64,000 nucleotides of DNA from Panagrolaimus kolymaensis (taxonomy: Eukaryota; Nematoda; Chromadorea; Rhabditida; Panagrolaimidae). The notes under the pieces were generated by a model. It did not search any database, was not told where the DNA came from, and saw only the letters and a program-made list of their open reading frames with translations. Position 1 is the stretch's first letter; every line of letters starts with the position of its first letter. Shown piece by piece: positions 2,391-38,859 of this stretch. Location: assembly GCA_028622995.1 (NCBI GenBank), contig JAJQJQ010000019.1, positions 3,162,001 through 3,226,000 of the forward strand. The letters are read 5' to 3'. The position numbers were made by a program, and so were the translations under genes.

Positions 2391-2399
2391 TAAATTTTA

Positions 2400-3480
2400 A
2401 AATTAATTATATCGACGCTTTTACAAATGCCATTACATTTCTAAATTAAAAAACATTATATTTTTTTTTATTGCTTTTATTTACATATTTATTTCTTCCT
2501 TTCCCTTTTTCTATGTTTTAATATATCATCTCCCTCTTCATTTTCTTTCTTTTTTTTTTTGAGCAAAGCTTGGTTTCCTTTTTTTTTGCTTTTTAAAGCT
2601 TACTTTTATCTTATGGCGGCGGGCGTTAAGCAACAAAAAAAAGAAGGAAAAAAAAGGATAAATCAATATGCTCTTGGTTAAAAAAAAAAATATGCGCAGC
2701 AGCAGCGACTAAAAAAACTGACTTTACATTTTTCTTTCTTTTTTTTTCATGGCACTTGTGCGTCTGTTTGTGTTTTTTTCTTTATGTCTCATGGTTTCTG
2801 GTGAGTAAAAATGAGTGCCATAGCCGCCGCCAAAGGGCATCATCATCATCAACTCTACTGCAAAAGCAGCAGTGAGTGAGTGAGCGCATGAAAGCAACTA
2901 GTTGAATACTTTATATTTTTTCTGTGCCTCTGGCTCTCTCTCTCTTGAAACAAGAAGGGGAGAAATGATGAAATTTCTGGATGTCAGTCTTTCACTTTTT
3001 TTAAAGAATTTTCAGCCAGTCTAGGAAAAAAAAAATGGAATATTTCATAAAAAGAAAGAAAGAGCTCTTTGGCATGCCATCCAACTTCCCTTCCTGTTGT
3101 TTTCTTTCTTCTTTTTTATTCGATGAAGCAGTTGAAGCAGAAATTCAGCTGTGTGCTGCTTCTTTGAAAAAAGTCTGCTCTTTTTTTGAAGCTTTTTTTG
3201 ATCTCTCCACATTTTTTTAAATTTCTTTAGTTTGTCCGAAACTCCTGGAGAATTCAATTTTACATATTTTATTTTGCTTTCCTTATTTTTTCTGCTAAAA
3301 TACATATATCTCTCATTTTTTTTATCATCGTTTTGTTTTTTCATAGTTAGTCTTTAAGTGTTTTTTGTTGTTGGTTTTTTTTTTGAAATTTGCTATCATC
3401 TTTGTTTTATTTTTTGGGCAAAACCAAAACCAAAACTTTCGATTAATATATTTTTCTTTACTTATATTTTAAAATTTTTT
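2400..3480. promoter_or_regulatory. Word-poor strip between oppositely oriented arrays; candidate divergent promoter
   Basis: Almost no CAGTTT/AAACTG words occur here (one AAACTG at 2715-2720). The sequence is T/C-rich with a GC-richer core at 2810-2900 containing CAT and GAGT repeats. Two good donor-like sites lie at 2801 (GTGAGTAAAA) and 2873 (GTGAGTGAGT). An ATG at 2749 followed by 17 hydrophobic codons runs into the first of these. The word array changes strand across this strip, so the simplest reading is a bidirectional promoter, with egl-8 (or an upstream exon of it) going right and an unseen gene going left. Confidence 0.4.
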
Positions 3481-3892
3481 ATCAATAAACTGTCATTAAT
3501 TTTTTTTTCCTCAAAACTTTGTTGAGAAAAGCGGTTTATTAAATTTTTTATTTAGACCTTTGATTTATTTTAACTGTCATACCATTATTTTTTCGAACAA
3601 ATCTTTCTTTGAAATATTAAAACCTCTAAATTTTATAATATAAAAACTGATATTGATTCATACGAGCAAATTTCATTGATTATTAAACCATCTTCATTAG
3701 AATTTTTGATTTTCTTTTAAATGCTTTTTTTAAATATTGTTTATAAAGGATTTTAACTGCAGCTTTGGTGAAGGTACTAATTTCTTTACTAAATTTTTTT
3801 TTCGGTTTAAATGTTTCGTGAATTTTTTCGATTTTATGTTTATCAAATTAGGAATGAAATTGAGTTTTATGATATCAATGGTTAGTGCATAA

Positions 3893-5469
3893 AAGCCATT
3901 TTTTCTAAAAATCGAACTTTGCTGGAATTTATCGAAAATTTTTAATTTCCCAAATTGACTTTTCTTTGACTACCCATAGGTTTTCGAGGTCGCTGATCAC
4001 GAATCTGATCTCAGTTTCATTGGTTTCGAAGCGAAAAGTCGTATCCAGAGGTCTCTAAACGAAAACCCAACTTTTTTTTAAGACGATTTTTTTAAAAACT
4101 GTTTACATGGAAAAATAGTAAAAAATACGCTGGTTATTTTCGTAATTGATGCCGATAATAGAAGTATAGGTACAAATGGGTCAAAAGTCCATTTTAAGGA
4201 AAAATTCAATGTTTCGCTTGGGAAAACTCGAAATCTGTGGCTCGTGCATGGCCATTTGAAGACATATTCGGATTCCTCATGAAATTTCACCCTAGAAACT
4301 TTGAAATGTAAAAAAAAATGCGTGGCCAATGGGAAACGGTGACTGGCTGAATGAATTACATCAATATGAGGTATATCAACAAGTAATTAATAAACACATG
4401 TGAAAAATACAAACTCTTAGCCAAAAACGTAGAAAAACTCATTTAATGATTTTACAAATCGATAAAACTTCATATTGATATGCTTTTCGATTTTTCCCAC
4501 ATTTTTAAAGTTTAATAGTGGCAAACGATGGTCAAAAAAATAAAAATTATAAAAATGAGGTATTTATTTTTAAAACTCTTCATTTCTAGCCCTAATTTGG
4601 GTCGTAGAAACCGAATTTGACAATTAAAAAAATCTATCATTAGTTGGTTATTGAGTTATGAATTTTTTAAATATGCAAATTTTTCACTATGCTATTACTC
4701 AGTTTTAAGCTAATCATTCGTAGAAACTGTTATCAAATTCGGTTTCTACGACCCAAATTAGGGCTAGAAATGAAGAGTTTTAAAAATAAATACCTCATTT
4801 TTATAATTTTTATTTTTTTGACCATCGTTTGCTACTATTAAACTTTAAAAATGTGGGAAAAATCGAAAAGCATATCAATATGAAGTTTTATCGATTTGTA
4901 AAATCATTAAATGAGTTTTTCTACGTTTTTGGCTAAGAGTTTGTATTTTTCACATGTGTTTATTAATTACTTGTTGATATACCTCATATTGATGTAATTC
5001 ATTCAGCCAGTCACCGTTTCCCATTGGCCACGCATTTTTTTTTACATTTCAAAGTTTCTAGGGTGAAATTTCATGAGGAATCCGAATATGTCTTCAAATG
5101 GCCATGCACGAGCCACAGATTTCGAGTTTTCCCAAGCGAAACATTGAATTTTTCCTTAAAATGGACTTTTGACCCATTTGTACCTATACTTCTATTATCG
5201 GCATCAATTACGAAAATAACCAGCGTATTTTTTACTATTTTTCCATGTAAACAGTTTTTAAAAAAATCGTCTTAAAAAAAAGTTGGGTTTTCGTTTAGAG
5301 ACCTCTGGATACGACTTTTCGCTTCGAAACCAATGAAACTGAGATCAGATTCGTGATCAGCGACCTCGAAAACCTATGGGTAGTCAAAGAAAAGTCAATT
5401 TGCGAAATTAATATTTTTCGATAAATTCCAAATTCATCGAAAAAGTGTGATTCTTAGGAAAAATGGCTT
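3893..5469. repeat. Long near-perfect palindrome (fold-back element)
   Basis: Positions 3951-4620 and 4733-5402 are inverted copies of each other. Position x pairs with 9353-x without any indel, with at least one mismatch (near 4519/4834), around a 112-bp loop (4621-4732). Weaker inverted similarity continues out to about 3893 and 5469, where the ends read AAGCCATT and AATGGCTT. ATAA flanks both sides (3889-3892 and 5470-5473), a possible target duplication. The two identical 83-codon open frames in the arms (4078-4329 minus, 5024-5275 plus) are a consequence of the palindrome and not a recognised protein. No transposase is visible, so it is a non-autonomous fold-back element. A transcript across it would form a stem of about 670 bp. 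Confidence 0.93.
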
Positions 5470-8400
5470 ATAAACTGTTGATAAATATGATAAGTTAGGA
5501 ATATGTTTCCAAAATATTCAAATTTTGTAATTAAAACTGCATATGCGTAATTATCTTATTTTCAAATAGATAATTTCTTAAAGATTTTATAGGCAATTTT
5601 CTTTGAATATATATTTAAACTGAGACCGGCCACTTGAAGCGGCTTAAAATGATTAAAAAGGAAATAAAAAATTTTTCAAATTAAACTGTTTAATTTGTGC
5701 AAATCCTTTGTGAGATGTTTCCATTTAGACCTTTTTTAAATTTCTTTTAAACTGTAACATTGTAAATTAAAATGAATCCAAAGTCTAACTTCATTTTTCA
5801 ACTTTTAATTTTAAATATTTTATTAACTGGGAACAAAAGGATTTCGGGTTTAGATGAAAACAAATAACAAGATTGTAGTTTTAGCTAAAAAATGTTTTTT
5901 TGGTCTGGCGATCACGAACAGAATTATATGGCATTTTTAATTGTGGATGTATGAAACTGGCTATTGCAAATTTTTATTATAAAAACTGAGATCTTGATTT
6001 CCATCTTGCTTATTTTATTTTTATAATTTTTTGGTAAAATTTAGACTTTTTTCTTAGCTGCCTTACATGTGGGTTGATTTCCTTTATTTTTAAAAACTGT
6101 GGATCAAGAAAATCTTTCAAAAAGCTGTTTTAGTTTTTTTCATTTTCCTTTTCACCAATCAACTTTATTTTTTACTTTTTATTAGACATTTTATTTTTTC
6201 GGTTACACTTTTTTTAACTTTCAATTTTGTTTTTTTATTTCCTATTCCCTTCAATTAAGCAACAAAACGAGAGGACGACATCTTGTCAAAATTGATTTCC
6301 ATCTTCTTTTTTTCTCTTCATTTTCTTTCATTTAATTTTTTTATTTTCTGACTACTGGGAAAGTAATTGAATGAAAGTTAATTCTTTAAGACGTTTTTTT
6401 GTTTTGACTTTTTACTTTTTAAAAAACTGAACATAGTTGTGTGCTGCGGTTTTTTATTTTTTTAAACTGGGTAACCATGATGTAGCGGTCCAATAGAAAT
6501 TTATGTTTAAGAAAAACTGGTGGCAATTACGATGATCGGTCATATTTTTAACTTCTAATTTAGAAATATTCCTTGTTTTAAACTTTTTAAACTATTTTGA
6601 ATTTTTAAAAACGCTTTTGCAAATATTCATACTTTAAAAACTGATTGAATTTGGCAAATTTTTTGCATTTTTATATTTTATTTTTTGAACTTAAGCTTCT
6701 TTATTTCAATAAAAAACCAGAAATTATGTTTATTTTAATAAAAACTGTAAATTCGTCTTTTTTGCTTATTATCTTTAATTTTTAAGTAATGAAGAATCAA
6801 CAAATTTCTTCTCTTTTAAACTGTTCTGGATTATATGTGGTTCAAAAACTTATTTGTGACTGTCTTCCCCGTTTTTGCCATAGAGTTTTTTTAAATGTAT
6901 GTCTGTCTACTTTTGACAATCATTTGATTTTTTTAAATTATTAAACTGTTTCTTCGTTTTTACTATTTTTTAAAGATTCATTTTTAAAACTGCATTTTCA
7001 CATTCTTCCACTTACCTTTTTAACCTTTCCACAATAAAACTAATAAAATTAAATAAAACTGCGCAGGAATGTTGGAGTTCGTAATAGGTTAGCATTTTTT
7101 CTCTCTTTTTTTAAACTGTATCCTTTTGAGTTATATGATATATTCTCTTACTTCAAAACTGTAAAAGTATATATTTATTCTCGATAAATTTAATGGTTGA
7201 TTTTTAAAAAAGAATTTTGCTTTTGTAAAAATATTTATTAGATTTAAATTTTAAAAAAACTGTACGATTTTGAACGTATTTACAAATTTTTATGCACTGA
7301 ATCGGATGTATTCTTGCTTCTTTAAAGTAAAAAAACTGTATTAAAAGAAATGCATATATTAGAACAAATTTTTTTCTTAACTGCTTCTTTCTTAGTTTTT
7401 TAAATTTTTAAGAAATTTTTTTTTCTTTGTATCAACTTTTGATACGTTTGTAACGTTAATTAACTGTATTTAAGCTTTGGATTTTTTTAATAACAAAACT
7501 GTAAAATTTTTAAGTTTTTCGCACACAAAAAATATTTAAAACTGACTTCTGATATTCTCGACGGTAAAACACGATCTGAATTTTCCAGATATTTACCAAC
7601 TGCACTCAAAAAATATATATGTTTTTTCACAATAAAATTTTTTTCATTTTCTCATTTCTTCCATTTTTTTTTGCTTTTTCTGCTTCATCCCATTATTTCT
7701 ATTTTTCCCTTTCTCTCTCCATTTTTTTTTTCTAACCCCGCAAATTCTCTTCTTCATTTCCATATTTAGAATATTTAAAACATGAGAAAGAAGGAAAAAA
7801 ATAAATAAAATAAGATAGAAAAAACCCTTTTTTAGGGTTTCTCTCTCTCTTTTTTTTCTTCTTTAAACTAAACTAAAATAAAAAAATAAAATAATGGAAT
7901 TTGTCACTCATATTTTTTTTTCTTCCATTTATTTTTGTGACTGTCTCCAAACATACAACCCAAAAACAAAATAAAAACATTTCCGTCTTTTTTTTTTGTT
8001 GCATTCGTATATTTTTATTTTTTTCTTCGACTTTAACTTGTTGATTTTTTGTTTTGAAAAAAACAAATTCAATGTCAAATTTTTTTTTAATTTAGTTTCC
8101 CAAAAGGCTCTTTCTTCGCTGAACGCATTTTTTTCTTCTCCATATTTGTTAACGCTCAAATAGTTTTTTGTTTTATCCCAGAAAAATAGTTTTATTTTTT
8201 TATGATTGTTGAAATTTAATGAAGCAAATTTTTTTGGGCTTTTATTGTTTTTTGATTTTCAAGAAGGAGGCGAATGTAATGAATTGAATGTAAACTGTTT
8301 AATCTTGGGAATCTTTTTTTTCTGGGGCTTTTATACTTTTTCTTTAATAAAACTGCATAAATTGAATTAATCTTGTTAGAATTTAAAATAAACTGAGTAT

Positions 8401-11400
8401 CAGAAATCTTTTTTTGATTTAATAACCATTTTATTTTTTATGTAAATTTTCTTTTACTCTTAAAATAGAAGATTAAAAAACTGGTGAGATATCTATTTTT
8501 ACGTTCATTGTGTTGGCAAAAATCTTTATTTTAATTAACTCATGTTACTGAGAGATAATAAAAATGGGAATTTTTTAAACTGTATTATATTTTAAATACC
8601 TAAAGAAACACATATCGAAACTTATCGAAATTTTTCGCTACTTTGAAACTGAGCTTCATTTACTATACTTCATTATTTTTACTTTTTTAAAAAGCTTCAT
8701 AAACTTTTAATATTAAAAAAACTGTAACAGATTCTTTTGAGTTTTACCAAAAGATTATAATAACACAAGTTTAAACTTTATGTTTTCATGATTTTCTTTT
8801 TTCCTTTCTTTTTCTTATTCATTGTTCTTACTTAAAACTGATAACCATTCTTTTTATTTAAGTTGATTTATTCTGCCTTTTTTATCCTTTCATATTTTAA
8901 TATAAAATTTATTTCAATTATTTTTTTCTTTTTTTTCTTTAACAAAATAATAAACTGTGGCTCATGAATAGAAGTGGTACAAATTGTTGCAAGACCTCTC
9001 TAAATATTTTACTTTTTAACTGTCGAAGCAAATTCATTTTGCTTTTTTATTAACTGTCAAATTTGGAACTTTTATATATCTTTAATTTTGGTTAAAAAGA
9101 CAGTAGCATAACTTTAACATAAATTTATTTTTATTAAACTGTGCAAGAGTGTCGCCAACTTTTCTTTTTTCTATTCTACAGTTCTTTTTATTATTATTAT
9201 TATCCATGACGAAACTTTTGTCACTAAAAATAATATTTTTAAAAAAAAGTTATATTTTGAACTCCACGCAAAATAAAAAAATCTTTAAAGAAAGAAAGAA
9301 ACGTAATTTTTTTTTTGTTGTTATTCGTTATTAACCTTTTTTTAGAAGTTTACTTTCTATTTTAAGAAAAATCTTTGCACGGCAGAAAAAAAAAGGTTTT
9401 TTTTTGTTTTTTGAATATCTTTTTTCAATATTTTCTTCTTTTTTTTCTGCAAAGGAAAAAAATAAAAGTAAAAAAAGGGCAAAAAAATTTACGTCATTGC
9501 TTCATTGAAAATTTGATTAGTCCCTTCTCTCCTTTTTTTTTCTTCTCTCGATTCTCAAAACACAACAACTCAGAAAAAGAAGTTTGCGTGTTTAAAAGTT
9601 TTTTCTCTTTTTTTTCTTCATCTGATGTTTGGCAAAAAAGCTTTAACTGTAGCCTCAGAAATTGTTGTAAAGTTAGTAAATGTATATTTATTTGCCAACA
9701 ACACACTGCAATTAGAAATTTTTTGTTCTTGGATGGGAAAAGAAAGTAAAAACTGAAAATATAGGATAATTTGTAGAATTGTTTTTAGTTTTTAAATTTT
9801 ATTTTTTATAAAAAAATAAAGGTATAAACTGGATCCCAATTCTGAAGAAGGTTTCTAAAAATATTTTCACCAAAAAGACTTGGTTTTTTCGATCTAAATA
9901 TCCAAATTTAATTCAAAAACTTTATCGATTTGGCTCTCTCTTTTTAAAATTTTTTATTTATATTTTTTAAACTGGCAGACAATTTCACGAATTTCTCGAA
10001 AATTTGGCAACAACTAACGTTTTTATTTAAATAAAACTGTCTTAGGAGATTTCGTTTAAACTTTTTATAAAAAATTATTTGTTTTAAATTGTAAAAAATA
10101 GTTAAACTGAGTTACTTAAAAAGATTTGTATTAAATTTATTTTTATGATTTTTATGTATTTTTCATTACATTCAAAAATTAAAACTGTTGACTTCTTACA
10201 TATTTTGTATGTCTTTCTATTTTTTTCTTTTTCAAAACTGTCAACATTCGTGTTAAAATTAGGCCATAAGCGAAATTTTATATCAATTTTTTGAAGCCCA
10301 TTATTTTAAAATAAACTGTAAAAATTTTTAATATTTCTTTTATTTTGACATTCAAAACTGTGGGATATAGCCTAATTCAACTTTATATAATTAAAAAATA
10401 ATAATATAAAACTGTGTTTTGTTTAAACATATTTGGCAGTTACCAATAGGTTTTTCAATTGATATGCATTTTTACGAAACTAAAAAACTGGACTTTTTAG
10501 TTTATGCACATTACCTTTTTCTTAAATTTATATCATTAATTTAAAACTGTATCTTCGGATAACGACAATATTCTATCATTACAATCTTGAAAATAGTCTT
10601 ACAATTGGCATAAAAAATACCATAGGTTAGAGTAAATTAAAAACTGCATTTTGGGCCGATGTCATAAATAAAAATACAATTTTTTTTAACATTGAGAAGA
10701 ATGATACGGTTATAATTTAATTTTTTCCTTCTAAATATTTACTTAGTTTTATTTTTTATTTGATCCTGTCTTTCATTTAAAAAATTGGTATATTTTGAAA
10801 AGTTCTTTCTTTTTTCATGTTTCTTTTTTTATATAACTATTGACCATATTTTTGTTGTAATTTCAAATAAGATTTATTCTTCTTTTAATAAGAAATAATG
10901 TTATTTTTATAACTGAATAACGGGATAATTGAGGGTTGATCTCCATTTCATTTTTTTCTATATAACTTAAATTTATTTTAAAAATGAAGTGGTTGTTTGC
11001 CACAGGCTTCCCCAAAATGCGACAATTTTTTGATAAATTTGACAAAATAAATATAATTTTTTATTCTAAAACTGTAGCAGGAGTTTTATTAATATACAAA
11101 ATAAATATTCTTAAAATTTTTTAACTGACCACTTGAAAGATAGGGGGTTTAAAGCTAGATTTAAAAGAAATTTTTAACTGCCTTCAATAGCTTAAAACTT
11201 TTTTAAAATTAAACTTTAAAAAAAAAAGATTTTTCTTCGTTATCTGTACTAAAAAAAATTGACAGTAATCGTATCATTGGAAATTTATGTTTCAACCCAA
11301 ATAAAAAAATTTAAACTGAGTTCAATAAAAAATTTTTTAACGGTTATGTTTCATAAAAAGGAAATTAAAAACAGATAATAAAAAAGATATAATTTAATGA

Positions 11401-11450
11401 AAAAACTGTCGGATAATGTTTTCTTTTTCTTTTTCTTTTATCTCTTTATT
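5470..11450 (+). repeat. Plus-oriented AAACTG-word array upstream of egl-8
   Basis: T/A-run + AAACTG recurs on the plus strand. In 6800-7600 I count copies near 6819, 6944, 6985, 7055, 7113, 7156, 7257, 7333, 7378, 7461, 7496 and 7539, about one per 65 bp at irregular spacing. The opposite orientation is nearly absent. Isolated plus copies begin earlier at 3487, 3572, 3654 and 3755. Word-poor T/C-rich islands interrupt the array at about 7560-8290 and 9150-9740, with a sparser stretch at 10,690-11,060. No coding exon is recognised; the small open frames are low-complexity translations of A/T runs. Probably the long 5' intron or upstream region of egl-8. Confidence 0.85.
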
Positions 11451-11479
11451 CTTGCGTTTTTTTATGCAACCACAACAAA

Positions 11480-11829
11480 AACATTAAACTAACTCTTCAC
11501 TCAGTGGACAAATAGGAGGAAGGGGAGAGGACACTACTGCTGCAGTAGTCTTCGTCCTCGTCGTCATAGCGCAGCAGGAAGAAGAAAAAGGAAGGGAAGG
11601 ATAAAAAAAAGAAGAGGAGAGAGAAAAATAAAAAAAGCTCATCGACTGCTTTTTTGAACGAAACAAAACGGAAAAGTAGCCAGCGAGTCAGTCGTATATC
11701 GACGACGACGACGACGCCAGAGGGAGAAAAGAACGAAACAGAGCCAACTAACCCAGCAACGCGCGAAAAAAGCAAAAAAAAAAAAAGACAGAGGACAGGG
11801 AAATAATAAAAAAAAGAAAAAGAGGACGA
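11480..11829 (+). promoter_or_regulatory. egl-8: GA-rich island; candidate promoter/5' non-coding exon of egl-8
   Basis: This is a purine-rich, GC-richer island with a run of GAC repeats around 11,700-11,715. It lacks the AAACTG word, which flanks it on both sides. It ends at a good donor (ACGA|GTGAGT, GT at 11,830). A matching acceptor (TTGTATTCAAG, AG at 12,460-12,461) lies 68 nt before the egl-8 ATG, and three or four AAACTG words lie between them, as in the other egl-8 introns. I infer a first non-coding exon here spliced to 12,462. Open frames on the opposite strand are antisense to GA repeats. Confidence 0.4.
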
Positions 11830-12461
11830 GTGAGTGTGCTGCTGCGTATGTATGAGAAATTTGTTTACTTCGGAGTTTTATTTTTTTCCCCAACAAAATA
11901 AAAAAAAAAATGGACAAATCCTTGCAATGGCGGAATAAAAAAAACTGAGAGAGCGCGAAAATATTTTTATATGTACACTTTTTTTTTCTTCGTTTTCTGT
12001 TTTGTTTTTTTCATAAACGTGTGACATCGCTTTCTTGCGGGTTTCAAACCATTTTTTATTTCATTGTTTTTAAAACTGAGTTTTGTTGTTTTTTCACAAA
12101 CGTGAAATGGCTTTTTAATATTCGCGTTTTTTTGTTGTTGCTGGAATTAAACCATTATTTGTTTTTTTAAAACTGAGCTTGTAATTTTGCGTTTTTCAGA
12201 TTTCTCAACGATTTTATTAGTTATTTCTTTTTTTCGCCGTAGATTTAATTATTATTATTTAAATTTATAATTTATTTGTCAATTTTTATTATTAAAAAAA
12301 AGAAAAACATTCCTTCCAAATATATTTTTTGGATTTTATTTGATTTTTACTTTAACTGAAAGATTTCAACATCATACGCAACAAAAAAATTAGATTTACA
12401 AATTTCATAATTCTGGCTGATTTAATTAAATATTTTTTTGGTTTAATTCTTTGTATTCAAG

Positions 12462-12529
12462 CCGGCCGTCCTTAATAAAAAAGGAGCGGCCGAGCACCTA
12501 TAAATCAATAAATCAATCAATAAATAATT
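12462..12529 (+). promoter_or_regulatory. egl-8: 5' UTR segment of egl-8 with GC-rich hairpin
   Basis: Just downstream of the putative acceptor, GGCCGTCCTT (12,464-12,473) pairs with AAGGAGCGGCC (12,481-12,491) across a short A-rich loop with one bulged base. In a region of about 20% GC this is conspicuous. It ends about 39 nt before the start codon, where it could affect leader splicing or translation; that role is inference. Confidence 0.45.
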
Positions 12530-15500
12530 ATGGCAAAAGAATATAATTTTAAATTTTGTTCATCCATTCCTAAACTTTTATTGGAAGGTGATACCTTTGA
12601 TCGATACGATGATGAAACGTGCACCTTGGATATAGGATGCTTTGTTAAATTTGAAGAAAGTGGATTTTATATTGTTTGGGAACCCAAAAGCAAAGATGCG
12701 GGTTTATTAGATATTTCACAAATTTGGGAAGCTCGTCAATCAGGAACAATAAAAGATGCTAAAATTATTTTTGATTTGGAACAAAGACCAACGAAAGAAA
12801 GTGTGGAAGATCGAACGATTTGGATTACATATGGATGGGATATAGTTACAGTGAATTCATTATTTTTAATTGCTAAATCTGCTCAAATTGCTAAAGATTG
12901 GAGGGATGGAATAAATAGTATTGTGCATAATTATAAATTAAGGCATGCTTGTCCCACCACGGCTTTACAGAAACAGTAAGTTATTCTTTTTATATTTAAA
13001 ATAAAACTGGGGAAACTTTTTGAAGAAAAAATCACAAAATGTCAATAAATATAATATTGATTTTTTAAACTGGGCGTTGATTTCTTTTGTATCCAAGATT
13101 CTCGTTAAAATCACGTAAAGAAATCATTAATTTTTTATAACTGTGTTCTTTAATTTTAAAACAAGAAGCTTTACGAAAAGGGTTTTAGTTTTAAAGAAAT
13201 GAAAAAATAAAAACTGAATTCACTAAAACGATTTGTTGTGAAAAGACAAATATTATTTCGTTCAAATTTTTAAATTTAATAATACAATTTTTTGAACTGA
13301 TATCGATTATTTAATTTGATTCAAGAGTTTGTTTGTTAAACATCATCAAAAAAAATTATTAAAATTTTAAAACTGCGCTGAACGAAAATACTTAGCCTTA
13401 GAAAAGGGTTAAAAAAAAGAGTAATATTGTAAAAACTGTAACACTATTTGTAACACGGCTTGTTGCAAGACAAGAAGTTTTCTTGATAAAAAAGTGAAAA
13501 CTGCATTTTAAAACAGAAAATATATATAAAGATTTATACCTTAAAAACTGTGCGATGTTTTTGCCCATTCTAAGGTAGAATTTGGTGCATGCAATTTTTT
13601 TTATTAAATATATTTTTATTTTTAAACTGAGGTTTTTTGTTAGAGTTTGTTCAAATTAAAGAAAGCATTAAACTGGAGGAGATGATACATTACTGATTTT
13701 TTTAAACTGCAGTAAATTTTAACCGCCTGTAATCTTACAAAAAACATTTAATTTTAAGAAAGAAAAAAACTGAAAAATGAAAGTTTTTATTTTTCGGAAA
13801 AACTTTAAAATATAAACTGTATCAGTACTTGATCTTCGGAAAGTAACTATTCAAAAGCTTTTTTCAATAAAATAATCAACTGCGTCAAAACTCGTATTCT
13901 TATTTATGAATTAATTGCAAAAATAAATAAACTGACAAAATTTTTATTCTTAAATCAAGCAAGCATTCGATTATATTTTGCATAGTTATTAAAACTGCGA
14001 TATAATTTTTTAAGCCTTAACTATATTTCTTCAAAAAAATGAAAAAAGGTTTTTCACTATCAATAAAAAAAAAGAGAAAAAAACTGCAACTTGATTTCGT
14101 TAGCGGCAAGTTTCTTGAAGTTCATACAACAACAACAAAAAATTAACTGCGAGCTTTGTTGATAATTCAACAAATTATTTAGAATATAATGAACTAAAAA
14201 TTTATAAACTGTGACAGTTGAAATTGCTGGCTAATTTCTAAGAAATATTCATGTATTAAAAAGCTTTTTAAAAAGGCGTTATAAATATTTTTTTAAATGT
14301 TACGTAAGAGCATTTTATAACAAAAAAAACTGAAACAGTAGGTGGTTCAATTGAGTTTTCCTACATTTAAATAACAAAACTGTGTTTTCTGCTTCGTTAC
14401 TTTTAATTTTTAGTAAAGAATTTAAAAAAAAACTGTATTTAGAAGCATTATAACATTTATGGTAATTTTTTCAAAAAGAAATTAAACAAAAAACATTAAT
14501 ATTTGAGTATTAAAAAAATTTAAAACTGTTCATTTCCTTTTTTTTGGAACAGAATTTTGCTTTTTGAGATAATTTTATAACTGTATTTTTTCATTTTTGG
14601 AATTTTTCAGTTGGCGTTCATTATGCCTTGCAACGAATGATCGAGGAAAGATACCCCTTCGAAATATAATTAAAACATTTTCAAGTGGAAAACCTGAACG
14701 CATGGTTCATAAATGTTTGACTGATTTGGGTTTAGCTGGAGATAAGGTAAGTTCAAAACTGTCCAGCTTCATGTTGTTTTTGTAAACCCATTGTAAAAAT
14801 AATTTTTATTTTGATTTATTTTTTACCGAATTTTAAAACTGTTTTGATCTTTTTTTTTGATTTTTGTGAATTATTATTTGTGTTTGTGGTTGTTTGTTAT
14901 TTTTTATTTTATTTTTTACTTCAGTTTATTGTTCGTCGATTGAATGGTAAATGGTCTAAACGTGTATCAAATGTTTATAAATGTCGAAGTGGTCGTAAAC
15001 GCGCTAAAAAGGTTTGAATGTTTTTTTAGTTAAAAAATTTTGTTAGTGTGGTTTTTGAAAAAGTTTTGTGATTTAATGGTTGATCGATTTATTTGCATTT
15101 TTTTTTATTAAACTGTTAAAAGCAATATTATTCGTTTTTATTTTTAGGAAAGGGAAGAACTGGATGTATCATTATTTACATTTGAAAAATTTTTGAGATT
15201 ATATCATAAAATTTGTCCCAGAACTGATGTGCAAGAACTTTTTGTTAAATTGTAAGTTAACATTACAAAAAATTTTTAAACTGCATTCGGCAAAGGCTGA
15301 TTTAAAAATAATTCAAAAATTTCTCATTTTTTGATTTTTTTCTAAAAAAAGTAAAAAAACTGTGTTTCTTTATCAAAGATTTTTTGGAAGTTTAATTACA
15401 GCAACAATTTCATGCTTTTTGGTAATTTTCTAAACTGTCATGTAAAAGTAGAGAAATAAAATAAAAGATCTAGAAATTTTCTTCTTTTTATAATTGCTTG

Positions 15501-18500
15501 ATTTATTAAAGAAACAGTGAAGAAAATTGAAAAGAATATTTAAAATATTGTTTTTTGCTTATTTTAACTGTCATCATCGTACTTCTTGTCTTTCATGAAT
15601 ATTAAATAATTTCCATTTATTTATAAAAAAACCTTTTTTTGGTTAATTAATTATATTTTTTAACAGGCTTCTCAAAAAATAAACTTTTAAATCATTTTTA
15701 AATATCGAAAAAAACTGAATCTTATTGTAAATTCCATGGATAGTATCAAATAAAAATATTAGAAAAAACTGAATTACATTGATTTTTAACCAAAATAAAA
15801 AACATTGTTAACTGTACTGAAAAACATAAATATTTCTTAAAACTGAGTCAAAATGTATATATTTGTTTTTTCAGATCAGGACAAAAAGAATATTTGACTC
15901 GAGATAAATTAATAACATTTTTAAATGATGAACAACGAGATTTAAGATTAAATGAAATATTATTTCCATATTTTGATAATGCAAGAGCGGATAAATTAAT
16001 TGCTAAATATGAAACGGATGAAAGTTATATTGCTCAAGGTAAGATAATTAATTATATTATTATTGGGGAGGAAAGGGATATATGAAACTGCAACATCGCT
16101 TGAAAATTAGCTTTTAATGAGATCAAACTGAATATCTTTTGGATTGTCTTATTAAAAAGCTTTTCGATTAAAAAAATAAATTAAGCTGTTGCTTGATAGC
16201 TATTTGTAAAACAACAAAACTGTCACCAATAATTTTTTTCGTTAAAATTTTAAAAAAAGAAGAAAAAAAGTAGGTTAAAAAACTGAGCAGCAAGTTAAAC
16301 TATATGTCTTTAATCAAGGCAAAGTGATTAACTATAATTTAAAAATTTTTTTATAACTGTAGCCTTTTTTGGTTAGCGGTGGCTTTAAATTATTAGTGTC
16401 TTAAAATTAAAATATAACTGTGTTGAATGAAACTGTTAGGACGTTTCATAATGGTTTAAACTGATTTATCAAAAAAAAATTTCGAATAAAAAAAGCTTTA
16501 AAATGCATAAATTAAATAATTGTCGCGCATAGTTTAAAAGGCGACATAAAAAAATAATAAAAATTGCAATCAGTTCAATTTAAAACTGATAATTTTGGCA
16601 AAAAATATAACTGCGAAGTATGTTGTTTTGAGGAAGCCACAAAATCAGCTGTATTTTTTGTTTAAATGCAAATAAATTTTTAATAATTTGACATTTTAAT
16701 CAGAGTAATTTCCAAAAAAAAACTGAGTCACATGATAGATCAACGAAAATAATTAAAACAGTTCCAAGATTTCTTTTTTTTTAAATAAAGAAAAGTTTTT
16801 ACATTCCAAAAATCTTTAAACTGTTTAGTTTTGCTAACATGTTGGAACAATATTCAGCCCAATCAAAATTTAAAAAATTAACTGAATAAAAGATTTTTTT
16901 TTTTTGCTTTTTTCTTTGAATAAAAAACTGAATTACGACCACCTTCATTTTAATATTATAAAAACTGTATAGAACATGAATAATTGTGATAACAAATAAT
17001 TATAACCTTTTTTGTGCGATAAAATAACTAACCAAGTGTACTATATAGGGAAGCGACAAATCAACTGTTTTTTTTAATTTAAAATAAATCTTAATTTTAC
17101 ACCATTAATTCGAGAAATCGGCGATATAAAGTTTTATAACGTTCGAAAAAAACTGCATCGCATTTTTTTATAATTAAAAAAAGAAAAGTTTTTTTACTTT
17201 AAAAATATTTTAAACTATTTCTTCTTTTGAGCTTACTTAACAAAAGTTTCCTTAACTTTTATTTTTGTTAATTCTCCGAATCTTTTTAAAAAATAATGCT
17301 TCGAAATTGAAACATTATTTTTGTGTATCAATCAAAACAGTCAGTTGTCTCATCTTTTTGAAAAATTAATTTTTGCATTTTTTTAAAAACTGTTTCATCT
17401 TTTTTTTATCAAAAAAAACCAATATTAATAATTTATTTTTATAGGTAAAATGTCGGGTGATGGATTCTTGCGATTTTTAATGTCAGATGAAAATTCCCCG
17501 GTATTTCTTGATCGAACTGAAAGATATCAAGATATGGATCAACCCTTGTGCCATTATTATATAAACTCTTCTCATAATACTTATCTTTCGGGAAGGCAAT
17601 ATGGCGGAAAATCTTCCACAGAAATTTATCGACAAGTCCTTCTTTCCGGTTGCCGATGCGTAGAATTGGATGCATGGGATCGAGAAAATGAACCCATTAT
17701 AACTCATGGAAAAGCAATGTGCACAGATGTTTCATTTAAAGAAGTTTTATATCAAATTCGAGATACAGCCTTTCTTCGAACTGATTTCCCAGTAATTCTT
17801 TCATTTGAAAATCATTGCTCTAAATCAAATCAATTAAAAATGGCAAAATATTGTATGGAAGTTTTTGGAGATATGTTATTAACGAAACCATTGGATGATT
17901 TTCCCGTAAGTTTTATTCTTCTTCTCTTTTTTTAACTGCAAATACATTTTAATACAAAAAATTAATAATAAAAACTGAACTTTCATGAGCTTTTTTTGAT
18001 TTAATATATGAGAAAGTTTTTGGGTGGACGAAGAGGGAAATATAAACTGTATATATTGTCAAATTTGTGATTAAAGCAAATATTTATTTTAAATTTATTT
18101 AAAAAATTTTATTTATAAAACTGCGAAAGAGAAAAATTCGCTGCGTTATTAAACTATTTTTTCAAATCAAAAAAAAATTAAAACTGTCAAGAATTTTTTT
18201 TCACTGCAATATTTTGAAAATTCAAGGTTTTTATCAATAAAAAATGTGATTCGCATTCAGCGAGTGTTTAAATAAATAATTACATAAAACTGGAGCATGA
18301 AAAATATTTATTTATATTTTTTGAAAATAAGATAAATTTTTTTGATAGCAAATTTTGCCTTTCTAAAACTAAGCGAGATCAAGTTTTTTTAAATAAACTG
18401 GTAATAGAAAAATGAAGATTAGTCAAATTAGTCATATAAAACTGGTATCCATGAATAGCATTTGTTTACAAAATTTCAAAAAAACTGCATATGAGGTTTT

Positions 18501-30500: not shown

Positions 30501-33500
30501 ATATAAATCTTTAAAAAACTGTAAACTTTCACGCTGATTATTCCAAAAATCCTCTTTTTTGTGTTAATATCCAAACGAAACTAAACATTTAAAAAATAAA
30601 GGTAAAAACCAAAATTTTCCAAATGAAAATAAACTGAATGTGAGAAAAATAAAATTAAAACTTTCATGACAAAAATAATAAACTGCAATATGTTTATTCA
30701 TTTTATTTTTTTTTAAATATAAAAGGCTTTGTTTATAGACAAAAAAATATTATAAACTGCAACCAATTAATTTTAATTGGAAAACTGTCTCGTTTCAAGG
30801 TTATTTTCTCGAAGCAAGCAAACCCACTCATTTTCTTAACACTGCTCCAAATCAAACATTTTTTTAACTCTTTCCATTTTTTTTCCAGCTCGATCCAATA
30901 ACAATTTTGACATTGAGAAAAGAAAAAATCTTTCATAAAACAGCAAAAAAACTTAAAAAAGATATGGAAGAATTAAATAAGAGGCATCAAAAGCAGAGAG
31001 ATGCCATACAAAAGCAACAACAATCAAACGTGGATAAATTAATTGTGGATTCACAAAAAATGTCTAAGAAACGAAATAATTTAACGAGTCGAGAATCCAC
31101 TGGTTCAAGGCATTCGTCTCTTGGAGGACGAGCAAGTGATCCAGCATCATCAACCGTGTCTGATATGTGTAATGATCATAAGGTTTGATTATTTTTTAAA
31201 CTGTCAATTTGATAATTTTGGGGCGAAATAATTGCTTTTAAACTGTTTCTTCTTGAAATTTTAGGGAGTGTATGATCAAATTAAAACTGTCAAAATCCAA
31301 TAACTTTGATGAGAATAAAATAAATTTTTTTAAAAACTGTTCTTTCGAATTTAATTTTAATGATGGAAAAAAATGAACAAAAGATAAAATAAATAGAATT
31401 TTTATTTTTAAATTCATTTTTATGAAATTGTGCTGCCATATTTGTAATAGATCTAGGGAATTAAAGATTCTTCCAAAATGAAGAAAAAATTCTAGTTTTG
31501 ATTTAAAAACTGGACTTTATTTCTAATAAGCGAATTAAAAAAAATTAAGGTTTAATAAAAATTATAAAACTGTGCAACACTCACTTCGTTGGTTAATAAA
31601 ACTACCACCCTCTCCATTAATTTGGAACAAAACTGGATCCTTCGGCCCACAGTTTTTAAAAACCATACCGTATTTTTAAAGAAAAAACTGTAAAGATATT
31701 TAGCAACATTTCAAAAATATTCGAAAAAATTATTCTTTTAATAAAATATAAGTTTTTATTAAACTGTTTTTTAAAAGACACATTTCTGCTTTGTCTTAGC
31801 TTTAAATTTAACGTTATTTTTTTTAAAATAAAAACTGTATTTCTTTTTTCTTCAGATTCGATCATTGGTATCCAATCAAACGGATGAATGGTCAACGTTA
31901 ATTCGTCGACAAGAAAATGAATTATTTGAAATTAAAAAGCAACAAATCACGGACGAGTATGATCTTCTAAAAAAATTGTTGCTTGATGCACAAAAAACTC
32001 AAATGGATACTTTGAGAACAAAATTGGAGGTGGAAACGCGAGAATTAAAACAATCCCAAACTCGAAAATCCATGGAAGATACCCGCCAAATAGAAAATGA
32101 TCGAAGTATTGCGAGTCGAGCGGAAAAAGAGCGAAGAATTAAAGAAACAAAAGAGAGAAATTTAAAATTATTTGTTGAAGAACGAAAGCGATTGGCGATG
32201 AAGTGAGTCTTTGAAGGAAATAAAAAATAAGAAGTTTTAACTGTGAGAATTTTTTTTGTAGGGCGGAAATTCATCAAGAACAATTAACTAAAAGACACGC
32301 GGAACAAGTAGATACTTTGGAACGTGAAAAGGCAAAGGTAAGAATTTTTAATTAAACTGAATAAAATCACAATCATAAGAATTCCATTTTAAAAAATCCT
32401 TTAAGTCAATATAAAAGCTTCTCGACTACCTATACTAAATATTAGATTTTTTTTGGCTATTGGGGTTGGGAATTAAATATAAACTGAGATTTTCTGTTTG
32501 AAATTTTTTTGAAATAAAATTAATACATGAAAAAGTTTGGGTCAAAAGAAAAAACTGAGGCGCCATTTCAATATCGGATATCCTTTGAACTATTATGTCA
32601 GAGAATAAAATACAAAAAACTGAAAACTCAAAAAAGCTTTTGAATATTGATTATTTACATAATAATATAATTAGGGTTATAAACTGCCACAAAAAAAAAA
32701 ACAATACCATAGCAATCACTTTTTTATTAAATAAAACAATTTGCTCACAAAAAAATAAAAACAAACTTTGAGAATTATGTTTTGCTAATATAAATAAAAC
32801 TGACATTCAATTTTGAGGACGGAAAAAATTACTTTATTATTATTTTTGAGGAAAAAAATGAGTAATATTTGACAAATTTTTTTAGTATTTGTTAAATTTT
32901 AACTGATTCTTTTGAAGATTTTTGGAATAAATACATTTTATAATTAATTAACTGCGGGTCATGACGTACTTGGAAGCTTTTTGGTTATTAATTAAATTAA
33001 AATTTAAAAAATTATGTGTTGCAAAGCAAAAGGAAAAAAAGGATGGGCAAGAAAAAATAATAACTGTCGACCGAATTTTCGTTGGTTAAAATAATTTTCT
33101 TTTAGCAAAAATATAAAAAACTGCCATTTAAAAAATCATATTCTTGAGTTTAACAAACAGTAAAATTTTAAAGAAAAAAAGAAACTGAAAAAAAAACCAA
33201 AAGCAAATAATAATCAGTCTTTGATTAACTTTGATTTTGCTATCGTTTGGCTTGAAGAATATAAAAATTAACTGAACAGATTCACGAATCCAGGATTCAC
33301 CAAAGACTTTTTGAAATCTTCGTTAATAACATAAAACTGCAAACCGTTGCAAAGGGAATCGTTGGAATAAATCCAGGATGCTTTAAAAAAAGATGGTTTT
33401 TTTTCTTTAATATAAATAAATTTTAACTGTAAAATGATTAATAATGATAATAAAATTAAATAAAACTGATGCTTACATTCTTTTTTTGGTTTAATATTAC

Positions 33501-34101
33501 AAACTGTATTCATAAGAAAAACTTTAATTGTTTTTTTTTTTGTAAATAAAACTTTTCAATGTTTGGGTTTGAAACTGTAAACACTTTAAAAAAGCGGGCG
33601 CCAATTATTTTATTTAAAATTAATATCACAATTAGCTCACACGAAAAAATTCAAAATTAAACTGTGTATTTCGTTTCATGGTTTGAACAAAAAACTTCCT
33701 TAATTATGAATAATTTAAACAAAAACTGCCATGATTTTTTACCAAGATCAGAAGAAAAATCGTGTTTTTTCTTTTTTGAGAAAAATTTTCGGGTCTTTTT
33801 TTCAAAAGTAATTTGTTTTTATTTTAAACTGAATTGAATAAATTTCGAACAAAAAAATCTTATTTTTTAATAGTAAATAAACTGTAGGATTCTGTTTGAT
33901 TTTTATATTTCTTCTCATAAGTTTTTTTAGTGGCACAAAATCAGTGAGAAAATAATTAAATAAAAACTGAGATTTATTATCCAATTACAAAATTTTTTTG
34001 ACAAATTTTTAAATTTATCTCTGAATTTTTAGGTCCTTGAACAAGAAGATATGAATCATCGAGAATCCATACTTGCTTCAAAACCTGAAAGCGTCGTTTA
34101 A
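12530..34101 (+). CDS. egl-8: Phospholipase C-beta (EGL-8), 19 coding exons, about 1717 aa
   Basis: Hydrolyses PIP2 to IP3 and diacylglycerol downstream of Gq at the plasma membrane. Exons by splice consensus and phase: 12530-12975, 14611-14746, 14925-15011, 15148-15251, 15875-16038, 17445-17905, 19461-19647, 19926-20615, 21823-21894, 21954-22042, 23445-23660, 24671-24970, 26645-27453, 28850-28952, 29150-29653, 30889-31182, 31856-32202, 32262-32337, 34033-34101. Layout: PH domain (about 1-149), EF hands (150-312), catalytic X (313-466) with His356, Asn357, Glu386, Asp388 and His400 in the expected motifs (SSHNTYL, CVELD, THG). Then a long acidic/Ser/Gly-rich X-Y linker (467-884), Y (885-about 1035), C2 (about 1037-1165) and a charged, Lys/Glu-rich coiled-coil C-terminus ending ESVV, a class I PDZ-ligand form. 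Longer than the usual 1.2-1.45 kaa, mostly in the linker and C-terminal region. The start has the expected MAKEY context. The exon ending 23,660 needs a GC donor. Introns are packed with the AAACTG word. Confidence 0.93.
12976..14610 (+). repeat. egl-8 intron 1: dense AAACTG-word array
   Basis: The word recurs roughly every 50-80 bp on the sense strand (for example near 13,004, 13,067, 13,371, 13,434, 13,545, 13,625, 13,815, 14,156, 14,206, 14,330 and 14,377), each after a T/A run. No coding potential. The same texture fills the other long egl-8 introns: 16,039-17,444, 17,906-19,460, 20,616-21,822, 22,043-23,444, 23,661-24,670, 24,971-26,644, 27,454-28,849, 29,654-30,888 and 32,338-34,032. 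Confidence 0.85.
29673..29743 (+). repeat. Short dispersed repeat, copy 1
   Basis: A segment of about 65-70 bp centred on AAATGGATGTCGTTTCACC followed by a T-run and CTGCCAGAAAAC. It is repeated with a few differences at 35,257-35,323. It lies at the start of the egl-8 intron that begins at 29,654. Confidence 0.75.
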
Positions 34102-35256
34102 CTGAAACACAATTAATTCATTTTAACATTTTTTATGGATTTTAACTGCATCGACCATTGCTATCTTAAATATTCATTTAAAAGCATTCCTTTTTTTGTT
34201 GAAATTTATTTTTATTTTAAAGTTTTTTTTTGTTTGTTCTAAAATTCAGATATATTTGCTCACTTTTTTCCTTTTCCTTTTTTTGCATGAAAAACACTCC
34301 AGATTTTTTGTTTATTTGAAAAAAAGCCATTTTGATCCTATATTTTTTTTTAATTTACCGATTTTACATATTTTAACGGGCAGAAAAAAAAGAAAAAGAA
34401 AAGTTATGATTTTTTATCGAAAAAAATAATAATTCCATTCTATTTATAAAAAAAACTGTTGACGTCATTTTGGTTTTGTTTTTAACCTTTAATATCACAA
34501 TTATTTTTACCAACCATACTTTTCTTCTTCTTTTTTTTAAATGGAAGAGAGACACAGTAATTAATTAGCTAATTTAAAAATTCGGGCATGTCTAAAATAT
34601 TTTTTTTAACTGTTTTGTTTTTATAAACTGATTTCCATTTTCTTAATTTTGTTTTTTACTTTTGTTTTGTTTTTCTTGGAAATAAAAATATTATTATTAA
34701 ATTTAACTGATGGTTTATTTTGATTAATTGCGAATGATACACAAATGGGGAAACTGTGTCGAATCATTAAAAGCCAACGCTGGAGATAAACTGCATTTGT
34801 CAATATGTTACTGGACAAAAAAGAAATTGTGCCATTAAATTTTATAAACAATTTGATCGTATTTTCGATAGTCTTACTTCTGACTTTTAATATTTTATAA
34901 TCTAAAAAAACTGTAATGTTTATAACATATATAACAGAAAAAAACTGGACACAAAGAGCCAAATGCTTAAAGTTATAAATTTTATGGTTTTCCAATTAAA
35001 ACAGAATTTGTAAAATTGTTAATGGCTTGGCTAATTAATTTTTAAAATAAAACTGTCCCAATTGTAGATGTTCGGCAAAGCAGATGTGCATATGTACACC
35101 GAGATAAAAATAAATTTAAAATAAAACTGATTTGCCGTAAACATTAAAGGCAAAAATATTCTTTTTTAAAAATTAATTTTTTTATTATTGTATTTAAACT
35201 GAAGCTTGCAGCGGTGATTGCTCAAAAACAAAAAAATCTATGTTATTTAAAAATAC

Positions 35257-35323
35257 TAAAAAATGGATGTTGTTTCACCTTTTTTAAATTTTTTATTTGC
35301 TGGCAGAAAACTGAGAAATTCTA
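35257..35323 (+). repeat. Short dispersed repeat, copy 2
   Basis: Same segment as 29,673-29,743 in the same orientation, with scattered substitutions (GTTGTTTC for GTCGTTTC, CTGGCAG for CTGCCAG). This copy contains an AAACTG where copy 1 has AAACTA. No terminal inverted repeat is visible, so its origin is unclear. Confidence 0.75.
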
Positions 35324-36049
35324 AAAACGGGTATTATAATTAGTTGCCAAAGATATGAAAATTTTTACACTGTGATCCTTTTATTGTCATAAAAATCAAA
35401 CGAAGAAAATAAACTGAAATTGGTTATTATCGATTATTTTTTTATAACTTAAGAAGACTGCACTATTTCTTTTTAATTTTCTTCAAAACAATTATACCAT
35501 TATTTAAGAAAGTTTTATTCTTGACAATTAATATTATTATTTCTAGAAAAACTGATTTTATTGATATAAACAATAGATAAAAACTGTGCACAAAAAAGCC
35601 TCTGCTTTAGCCCAAAGGGAAAAACTTTCATAATTAATTTAATTAAAACTGATACTTGATGATTATGGGTATTACTTATTAACTTTTAAAATAAATCTGT
35701 TCATTATATACAAGCAAAGCAAAGCTTCAAAGCTTAGGAATCTCGTAGCAATAATAATATTAATAAAAAAAACTGTTGCTTCTGTAATTAAACGGCATAA
35801 ATATATATTTTTAAAATTTTATTAATTTTATTTAGTATATTTTAACTGTCAACATCTGCCATATATTAACCAGAAATATATCACATCTATAATCGTATTC
35901 ACTTTTAACTGAATAAAAACTTGCTCACTTTTTAATAAATTCAATTTTTTAACTGCTTTGCATGATGTTCTTTGAATCAATAAATTAACTGTCAATCCAC
36001 AAAAATTAGTTTAAAAAATTTCTAACAATATTTAAAGAATGGTTTACAA

Positions 36050-36483
36050 TAGGGTTCCTGTACCCCCCCGCGGGGACGGGGATCCCCGATTCCCCGTCCC
36101 CGAATCCCCGTCCCCGTACCCGTCCCCGAAGAATTTCGTCCCCGTCTTCATCCCCGAATCCCCGTCCCCGAAAGAAATTGTCCCCGATGAAAATTTTGTG
36201 GACATTTTCATGATTTTTTTTTTCATTTTTCTCTTTTGTTCTTTACATGATTGCCTTACGAAAGATTAAAACAAACATTATTCGACAATGCCATATTGAA
36301 AAAAAACTTAAAAAAATTGTTTTAAATCGAAAAAAAATCAAAAAAAAATTTTTCTTCTATACCCGTCCCCGTCCCCGAAAAATTTGGTCCCCGACGGGGA
36401 TGACGGGGACAAGATTTTGGAAAACGGGTATGTCCCCGTCCCCGTTTTTTTCGAGATTCGGGGGGGGGGGTACAGGAACCCTA
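36050..36483. mobile_element. hAT-type MITE, 434 bp
   Basis: Terminal inverted repeats TAGGGTTCCTGTACCCCC (36,050 onward) and its complement ending at 36,483 are flanked by a perfect 8-bp duplication GTTTACAA (36,042-36,049 and 36,484-36,491). Eight-base target duplications and such short TIRs are the hallmark of hAT transposons. The interior consists of CCCCGTCCCCG-type tandem repeats on both sides of an A/T-rich centre; no transposase is encoded. The Pro/Ser-rich open frames across it are translations of the repeat and not genes. Confidence 0.93.
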
Positions 36484-36742
36484 GTTTACAACCCATGTGT
36501 CAAAGTAAAACACAAAAGAAAAATATGCTGTGTTCAAAAATAAGAATGTAGGTTAAATCTCTTTTTAAGAAATTTTTTAATTTACACTGACACAACATTT
36601 GATTTTTGGTTTTCATGAAAAAAATTAAAAATCAAAGGGTAAATTGATACTAATTACAAAAATAAAGTCAGCAAAAAAGTAAATAAAAATATTTTTTAAC
36701 GATGGTTTCGACATAAAATGGTAAAAAAAACTGCGAAGATGC

Positions 36743-37384
36743 TGTTAGGTAACTCCGTTTATGGGAGCGCTCTCCTTTTAATGTCACACCAGCTTGTGCA
36801 CTGCAGGCAAGCATGGAATAGAAACTGCAGCCATTGTAAGCGCCTACGTGCGCGTGCCTCACTTATTTATTGCAACCTCTGCAAAACATCCAGGCCTAAA
36901 GCATATTTAACTCAGCTTAAACCTCAACAACGTTACACTCAAGGCAGCGAATACATTATATTATAATTATACTTCCTTATTCATTCCTGCAAACCCTGCA
37001 AAGCATCAAGCCTGAAACTATATTTGAAGGCGACATGAACTTGGATTAGCACACGACTTTCTGCTCCACGTTAAACGACATTCAAGACCAGTTAAACATC
37101 ATCCAAGCATCAACCCAAGAAACTATATAAGCAGCCACACTTTACTCAATCCTTTGTCGATGGCCCGCCGTCAGCAAGAAGTTGAGCGAGAGCATTATAA
37201 TACTTCCCAAGCTCCACTCTGATGTCCCCTTATAAGTCTATAGCCTAGGATGTTTATATTTGTATGTAGCTACTTATTTATTTATATGTATGTAATTGTT
37301 TATCATAAAGCATTAACACTAACATCGGAGACCGTCTCGAGGGATAACGTGGGCTGTAGTTTGCGCAGACTATAGGACCTAACA
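36743..37384. mobile_element. Solo LTR, 642 bp
   Basis: Begins TGTTAGGT and ends ACCTAACA, the TG...CA form of a long terminal repeat, flanked by ATGC on both sides (36,739-36,742 and 37,385-37,388), a 4-bp target duplication. The composition is clearly more GC-rich than the surroundings. A TATA-like ACTATATAAGCAG lies near 37,123, where an LTR promoter could sit. No gag, pol or second LTR is present, so this is a recombination remnant of an LTR retrotransposon, probably Gypsy or BEL/Pao by duplication size. Orientation is not certain. Confidence 0.8.
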
Positions 37385-38859
37385 ATGCGTTTCGCCTCTG
37401 ATTAGTTAACTAAAAAAACTTTATTAAAATAAGCAAAAGTCAACCCATACCCAGCCATGAATAACAAACTGTGGAAAACGTTAAAATGTCAATATTTACA
37501 TTTCATAAACAAAACTGTTTTAAAAGAACACATTCGGCTTCTTAATTCATCGTAGTTAATTTTCTTTTTTTTCTTTCTTTTTTTTTAAACTGACCAGGTG
37601 AATTCATTATTTTTTGGGAGATAAAACTGTAAGCTTCAAAATATAGAGGGAAAAAAGGAGATCAAAGTTTTTTTGAATCAAAAAAAATTTGATATAATTC
37701 AATAAAAATATAAACTGTGCCATATTGTTTTTTTTGGTATTTAGTAAAATTTGGGAATGTTTTTAGAAAACTGAGAACGTGAATCCACAATCAATTCATT
37801 ATCCGAAAAAAGACTTTCAAATTTGTTGAAACAATTCTCTGAAAGAAAAAAGATTCAAAAAAAAAAAACATTTGTATGTAATTTTGTTAAAACTGTTAAC
37901 AAAAATTGGGTTTATGATCTTGTTAGATATGCAAAAAAAAAATTTAACTGAAAAAAAATTTAATAATAAATTAATTCATATTTTTATATTTTGAGAAAAC
38001 TGAGTCAAAACAAAAAAGAGTATACTTTTTAAAGCTTCGAGTAAACTGTCACTGATCGTTTTATTATTTGCAACATTTATAAAAAAATTAAACTGCTTTG
38101 GAGAAAAGTGTTGGATAAAACTGTGTTTATGTTATTTAGCGGTAAAATAAAGTCAAATGAAGCAAAGCATAAAAATGGTGATAATTTTGCAAAGTTATAT
38201 GAAAAATTTAGAATAAAAACAATTTCGCTTTTTTCCTTTCTCGCGCAAAAAAAATTTAAGCAACAATAAACATCCACAAAAATTGCATCAAACTTCGACA
38301 CTTCTTTTAAAGTTAAATCGACGATCAATGGAAGAAAAAAAATGCCAAAAAGATATTTTAGATAACGAAATAACTTTGCTAACGAAATTTCATAATTGTC
38401 GTGAATCTGCAACGAGTATGAAATAAAAGCAAAAACACCATAAAAAAATTTGTTTCAGGAATTTCCAAAAATCGCCTTCTCTTGCACGGATTATTACTGT
38501 AAGAAGAAAGGGAAAAAGCTTCGAAGACGCCTTCGTTCAATCTTTTGACAAAAAAAAGTGAATGTTGCTAATTGTATTTATTAGCTTATTTCGTGCTTTC
38601 ATAAAAATGTAAAAAACGTTGTTTTCGAAATGTACCGTGTTATTATTTAGCGTGATTGCTTTATCCGTTCTTGTTGTGGTTTAACTTTTATTGTTTTAGT
38701 ATCGTTTTTCTAAAAAGGTTATTTGGTGCTTGGTAATAAACTGTGATTAGGCTACGCGAATGCTTAAACTCAATCGACTGTACGTTTTCATCATTTTTGT
38801 CTTTTTTTTATTCATAGTTTTTGTTTTTCAGATTCAACGAAAACGTGCATGAACAAAGG

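Follow-up and report, generated by a model that had tools for sequence, protein, structure and literature searches.

Judged from word counts and from comparisons between homoeologous copies, the genome of Panagrolaimus kolymaensis carries arrays of short units that keep to one strand over long domains; the word WAACTG and the AT-rich tract before it are conserved, and the 19 nt behind the word diverge faster than synonymous sites. On balance, we favour reading these arrays as loci for 21U-like small RNAs in a lineage from which PIWI is reported to be missing. The lineage at issue is that of a free-living nematode from a group thought to have lost its piRNA defence, and the arrays bear on the piRNA-free silencing of mobile elements in nematodes outside clade V. 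P. kolymaensis belongs to Tylenchina, and we take Panagrolaimus to be placed in clade IV. The species is triploid with a 266 Mb assembly, according to the accessible text of its genome report (PMC10374039). The genome examined here comprised 265.8 Mb in 807 contigs, of which the window, i.e., the whole stretch of DNA under analysis, covers 64,000 nt (C18:3162001-3226000).

A one-strand array in and around a PLC-beta gene

The sense array lies at 3487..38743 on the plus strand, where AAACTG occurs 245 times, compared to 7 times on the minus strand (read as CAGTTT). In 200 dinucleotide-preserving shuffles of the same interval, the means were 18.6 (plus) and 12.1 (minus), with maxima of 30 and 21, respectively. 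The one-strand AAACTG array of about 35 kb described in the initial annotation is thus real, its plus-strand count lying far beyond the maximum of composition-preserving shuffles, at an excess of ~13-fold where a tens-fold excess had been claimed. The average gap between plus-strand words is ~144 bp (245 in 35,257), and the spacing of ~65 bp given earlier holds only locally; similarly, the 12 copies counted in 6,800-7,600 consist of 10 AAACTG and two TAACTG. Among the 18 words that differ from AAACTG by one mismatch, TAACTG alone comes near its strand bias (sense:antisense 1246:26 for AAACTG and 273:11 for TAACTG in arrays totalling 156 kb) and the remaining 17 stay within about twofold; we therefore take WAACTG as the functional word. 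By this word, the array contains 303 units in sense, including the 245 AAACTG, and 10 in antisense (~9.9 units per kb outside exons). A tandem satellite was rejected, in agreement with the initial annotation, because the tandem scan was negative and 1,199 of the 1,244 21-mers that follow the word in sampled arrays are distinct.

The start of a neighbouring array of opposite polarity occupies 1..2400 on the minus strand (24 antisense WAACTG, 0 sense), and a nearly unit-free island with 1 sense WAACTG (2401..3486) separates the diverging arrays. The remainder of the window (38744..64000) is without an array (WAACTG: 9 sense, 7 antisense) and contains one uncharacterised, one vitellogenin-like, and one beta'-COP-like gene, the latter two named from translations alone. 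By eye, two uncharacterised ORFs for which Pfam gave no match, at 39829-40659 (+) and 48566-49531 (-), resemble paralogues with a common C-terminal motif around CRIGIY, and an ORF at 58898-59248 is nearly identical to a portion of the beta'-COP-like exon at ~55.2 kb, which suggests a partial gene duplicate.

ORFs between 12.5 and 34.1 kb carry PH_14, PI-PLC-X, PI-PLC-Y, and C2 domains and identify a PLC-beta gene, which we take to be egl-8-like (hereafter, egl-8). The AAACTG word sits in its introns and flanks: exonic WAACTG number 4 compared to 44.2 expected over 19 exons, whose limits are approximate because they derive from ORFs. The first coding exon found (PH_14; 12533..12976, +) and the PI-PLC-X exon (17446..17903, +) are free of units, and one of the four exonic words falls in the exon that encodes the end of PI-PLC-Y and C2 (26646..27456, +). 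The last coding exon, located by eye from the sequence, is at 34033..34103 (+), and the units run ~4.6 kb further. Three copies of the PH exon exist in the genome, on C18 (the contig of the window), C3 (98%), and C40 (97%).

Other features were seen within the arrays. A foldback (inverted-repeat) element at 3894-5469 is missing from the C3 copy, where its flanks nearly meet, and has a relative with ~80-82% identity in another locus (L027). The array tail includes a GC-rich element (36036-36480) with TCCCCG-type repeats that are seemingly inverted. Outside the units, the sense strand of the arrays has slightly more G than C (skew 0.054), and purine-rich words such as GGAAAA are in excess.

Genome-wide extent and polarity domains

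Triples of AAACTG with gaps of 40-70 were found 2296 + 2319 times genome-wide, compared to 81 + 87 times for the reversed pattern. All but three of the triple matches listed lie at C3:6.777-7.178 Mb, and these are all on the plus strand. Eight 10-kb loci on C3 contain 664 AAACTG on the plus and 12 on the minus strand. To the left of the window, four loci, two of which (L025 and L026) have 4 kb in common, contain 314 on the minus and 10 on the plus strand. Sampled stretches further left, to C18:3.102 Mb, are dense on the minus strand, as is 1..2400 of the window, and five non-array loci (50 kb) have 19 and 16 AAACTG. Three loci (L017, L018, and L027) contain an array flip or an array end; right past the array end in L027 (5173-10000) lie 206-bp and longer tandem repeats. 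Based on stretches of C3 sampled at intervals, clustering spans ~1 Mb, and the sampled stretches of C3 and C18 together with the listed matches show thousands of unique loci clustered on the Mb scale. In the sampled arrays, 1,246 units include 137 triples, from which we estimate ~40,000 units over the three copies, presuming equal spacing everywhere. A recent segmental duplication on C3 comprises ~9.6 kb of array (L014 139-9749 and L034+L015; 98.8% identity); its copies are near-identical, with 1 substitution over the ~8 kb middle and differences at one edge.

Polarity flips at 2.4-3.5 kb of the window. The island at 2401..3486 has an identity of 0.87-1.00 per 100-bp bin between C18 and C3, compared to 0.82-0.90 over C18-C3 array alignments, and is perhaps a candidate divergent promoter region. 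Units in the egl-8 introns are in sense in all three copies. In a second array, on C3 and C18 alike, the units lie on the strand opposite to an ORF that encodes a BAH domain (E 3e-8 to 4e-8). Four segments with third-codon-position change are on the BAH strand, antisense to the units, and one more coding-like segment is in sense; because the four are adjacent and share its strand, the BAH-domain gene is apparently multi-exon. Since this gene is antisense to the units, polarity belongs to domains and not to genes, and the idea that it follows gene sense only was not supported.

Unit structure and divergence between copies

Based on the composition profile of 1,200 units, GC content is 0.07-0.19 at -16..-1, averages ~0.30 at +6..+25, and is 0.19-0.24 at +27..+46 (offsets counted from the first letter of the word). 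A GC-richer stretch followed by an AT-rich drop, as in a pausing signature, is thus present in base composition. Weak preferences occur for R at +7, C or G at +10, and T or G at +24 and +25. No column in -60..-19 had a marked preference for any base (|z| > 3.3, 1,200 units), and no Ruby/SNAPc motif was found in this interval. There were no stable hairpin precursors among 80 sampled units (mean z 0.05) and no Rfam match in the 134 kb searched (8 source sequences), and on these two grounds a miRNA hairpin cluster was rejected. The PATC-type period was absent: power at 10 and 10.5 bp was 0.17 and 0.15 in the arrays, compared to 0.27 and 0.33 in five non-array loci.

Nine pairwise alignments of copies (45.6 kb aligned, three among egl-8 copies; identity 0.82-0.90) were used to follow the units. 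With egl-8 exons masked and either side of each alignment taken in turn, AAACTG was retained in 490/638 cases (77%) and its other letter orders in 973/2136 (46%), which places it first among the 272 words that have 50 cases or more; without masking, it ranks 4th of 229. Per-offset divergence is low over the AT tract and the word, rises sharply at +6, remains high up to ~+24, and is lower again from +25. Relative to the nearby background outside units (bootstrap over 321 units; the egl-8 C3-C40 comparison omitted as redundant), the word diverges 0.62x [0.47-0.78], the 14 nt before it (-14..-1) 0.82x [0.71-0.93], and the 19 nt at +6..+24 1.95x [1.79-2.13], or 1.77x [1.58-1.94] where the word is retained (247 units). 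Divergence at -60..-21 was not lowered (1.28). In the egl-8 region of the window alone, +6..+24 diverges 1.97x [1.73-2.24] (156 unit comparisons) and the AT tract 0.79x [0.65-0.95]; the word, at 0.77x [0.53-1.04], does not reach significance on its own. Retention of 63 AAACTG in the window extends to all three copies in 35 cases and to two copies in 21, and 7 are found in C18 only.

Overall array divergence is close to synonymous divergence (dS 0.12-0.16 in seven egl-8 exons, the frame being assumed for one of them), and therefore the 19-nt window exceeds the neutral rate. Seven near-miss words retained in both copies (172 cases) gave 0.51x over equal offsets, where retained AAACTG gave 1.6x and retained TAACTG 1.41x; conditioning these controls on retention of the word favours low rates. 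Within the 19 nt, over all units, the rate is 2.14 at +6..+13, 1.66 at +14..+16, and 1.97 at +17..+22, with intervals that meet or overlap; if T(+4) were guide nucleotide 1, these classes would match seed, central, and supplementary positions, which is suggestive only. The 19-nt distances of 272 paired units comprise many zeros and a broad hump below the random value of 13.3. Because they are mixed, ordinary substitutions and indels fit better than wholesale replacement of the 19 nt, which was rejected. As for indels, a shift test suggests an excess and gap counts show none. The substitution spectrum of the 19 nt has no marked mutator signature, G-T and C-G being somewhat commoner in a comparison uncorrected for composition.

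Proposed interpretation as small-RNA loci

As we read it, a unit would begin with a ~14-nt AT-rich tract, followed by WAACTG and 19 hypervariable nt, and end in an AT-rich tail. The T-G is fixed and the following 19 nt are fast, thus T(+4) to +24 delimits a 21-nt window that begins with T-G; for example, in the unit at 7113..7137 (+), with AAACTG at +0..+5, the candidate 21-nt RNA corresponds to 7117-7137. We infer that this window is expressed as a 21-nt RNA from the sense strand, with the T of AACTG as its 5' U (UG + 19 guide nt), so that an array would group minute non-coding RNA loci by the thousand. We judged transcription of the RNA from the other strand unlikely, since its product would mostly start with A or C, +24 being depleted in A and enriched in T and G. 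Of the explanations offered in the initial annotation, intronic loci of the 21U/piRNA type fit best, but not with a Ruby-type promoter, for which neither base preference nor lowered divergence was found upstream; moreover, the candidate RNA would start inside the word (AAAC, then TG + 19 nt). The PATC-like code suggested there is not supported by the A/T runs, which have no raised 10-bp period. Nor, as a general rule, is a signal for splicing or in the nascent RNA of the host gene, given another array antisense to the BAH-domain gene.

Each unit could initiate its own capped transcript: a capped start at the A two nt before T would put U at position 3, as required by PUCH in C. elegans according to the accessible text of its description (PMC10567574). 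Alternatively, the RNAs could be cut from long one-strand precursors, an option favoured by the domain-wide polarity. The 21-nt RNAs would presumably direct an Argonaute to RNA of foreign or mobile origin. In the available parts of two surveys (PMC6436959, PMC4323106), PIWI is reported absent outside clade V except in Plectus, as are 5'-U small RNAs, so WAGO or another Argonaute would have to load the guides. The accessible text on small-RNA surveys reports no 5'-U class outside clade V and none in Panagrellus (PMC4323106), and in the portion available for P. davidi, the best prg-2 match (e-29) falls on the contig of the alg-1 match (PMC4123951). The reported absence of PIWI and 5'-U RNAs, the lack of a Ruby motif, and the unusual strand coherence stand against the small-RNA reading. 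No description of such arrays was found in the titles and opening abstract lines of the matches listed for piRNA and small-RNA literature on Panagrolaimus and Panagrellus, preprints and most subscription papers being outside the scope of that search.

We infer diversifying selection from the excess divergence of the 19 nt, which could also be mutational; if selection is the cause, an arms race would be directly visible in the guides. A wider proposal, possible but decidedly more tentative, is that of a PIWI-independent second guide-RNA system, in which one-strand arrays would comprise 21-nt guide genes by the tens of thousands, with a 6-nt start word and with guides whose diversity positive selection maintains, and which would have replaced the lost piRNAs of clade IV. 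The DNA signature, readable without RNA data, names thousands of exact 21-nt candidates and their start word.

The core AACTG is a Myb recognition word, and the main rival to small-RNA loci is a protein-binding array with local hypermutation: WAACTG would be the DNA site of a protein that coats chromosome domains (in pairing, silencing, or licensing), with the bound protein or a nick raising mutation in the adjacent 19 bp, and no RNA would be made. A short and strict word, a domain-wide polarity regardless of the host-gene strand, and weak preferences at +7, +10, +24, and +25 that could be contacts all suit such a site. We nevertheless consider it unlikely, since a one-sided 19-nt window of raised GC that ends at +6 and +24 is hard to obtain from binding alone and its spectrum (uncorrected for composition) lacks a marked mutator signature.

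Less probable still are RNA-level signals, in which WAACUG would serve the binding of a protein to very long nascent transcripts, or their processing, and no stable small RNA would result. The switch of polarity at a better-conserved, nearly unit-free island resembling a divergent promoter speaks for these, as do units in sense to egl-8 in all three copies, but the array antisense to the BAH-domain gene argues against them and the fast-evolving 19 nt are left unexplained. That the arrays are a decayed or dispersed repeat or a compositional artefact is very improbable: the DNA is AT-rich and a foldback element lies within the array, but the word is 13-fold above dinucleotide shuffles, the 21-mers after it are mostly unique, its retention between copies ranks first of 272 words (exons masked, at least 50 cases), and neither the tandem scan of the window nor the comparison of fetched loci gave a consensus element.

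Comparison with known small-RNA loci

PATC (periodic A/T clusters) share with the arrays A/T runs in introns, but the raised 10-bp periodicity is missing here. Type I 21U-RNA (piRNA) loci of C. elegans are likewise short, unique, and present in thousands, with Mb clusters and AT-rich flanks, and they resemble the units in the 5' T, the fast guide beside a conserved signal, and the A two nt before U, known here from DNA only. However, they carry a Ruby motif ~42 nt upstream of the 5' U, which 1,200 units lack, whereas the signal of the units abuts and includes the proposed 5' end. Their clusters also hold loci on both strands, whereas units keep to one strand per domain (664 sense : 12 antisense AAACTG in the eight C3 loci), in a lineage reported to be without PRG-1. 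Both strands are also used in the piRNA clusters of C. briggsae, for which the accessible text gives 25,883 loci (PMC9683057), a number of the same order as the ~40,000 units estimated here. Pristionchus-type intronic piRNA loci lie in introns of ordinary genes, as do the units, and have a GC-richer window followed by an AT-rich drop, but they are dispersed, about equally sense and antisense (P. pacificus intronic loci), and have a Ruby-type motif. The composition profile of the units also resembles the drop in melting temperature described for nematode piRNA 3' ends in the available part of one study (PMC6436959).

The units come closest to the 21-22U RNAs of Strongyloides ratti (clade IV), described in the accessible text as clustered and AT-rich upstream, without a Ruby motif (PMC9203780). 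Within that text, no WAACTG unit is reported, and the S. ratti loci mostly overlap on the same strand, whereas the units seldom do so (2.2% of 1,503 gaps are <26 nt, compared to 22.9% expected). As in S. ratti, the units are same-strand loci in Mb clusters of a clade IV genome, AT-rich upstream and without a Ruby motif, and the 5' U and length of 21-22 nt reported there, known from RNA where the units are known from DNA only, would match the proposed product.
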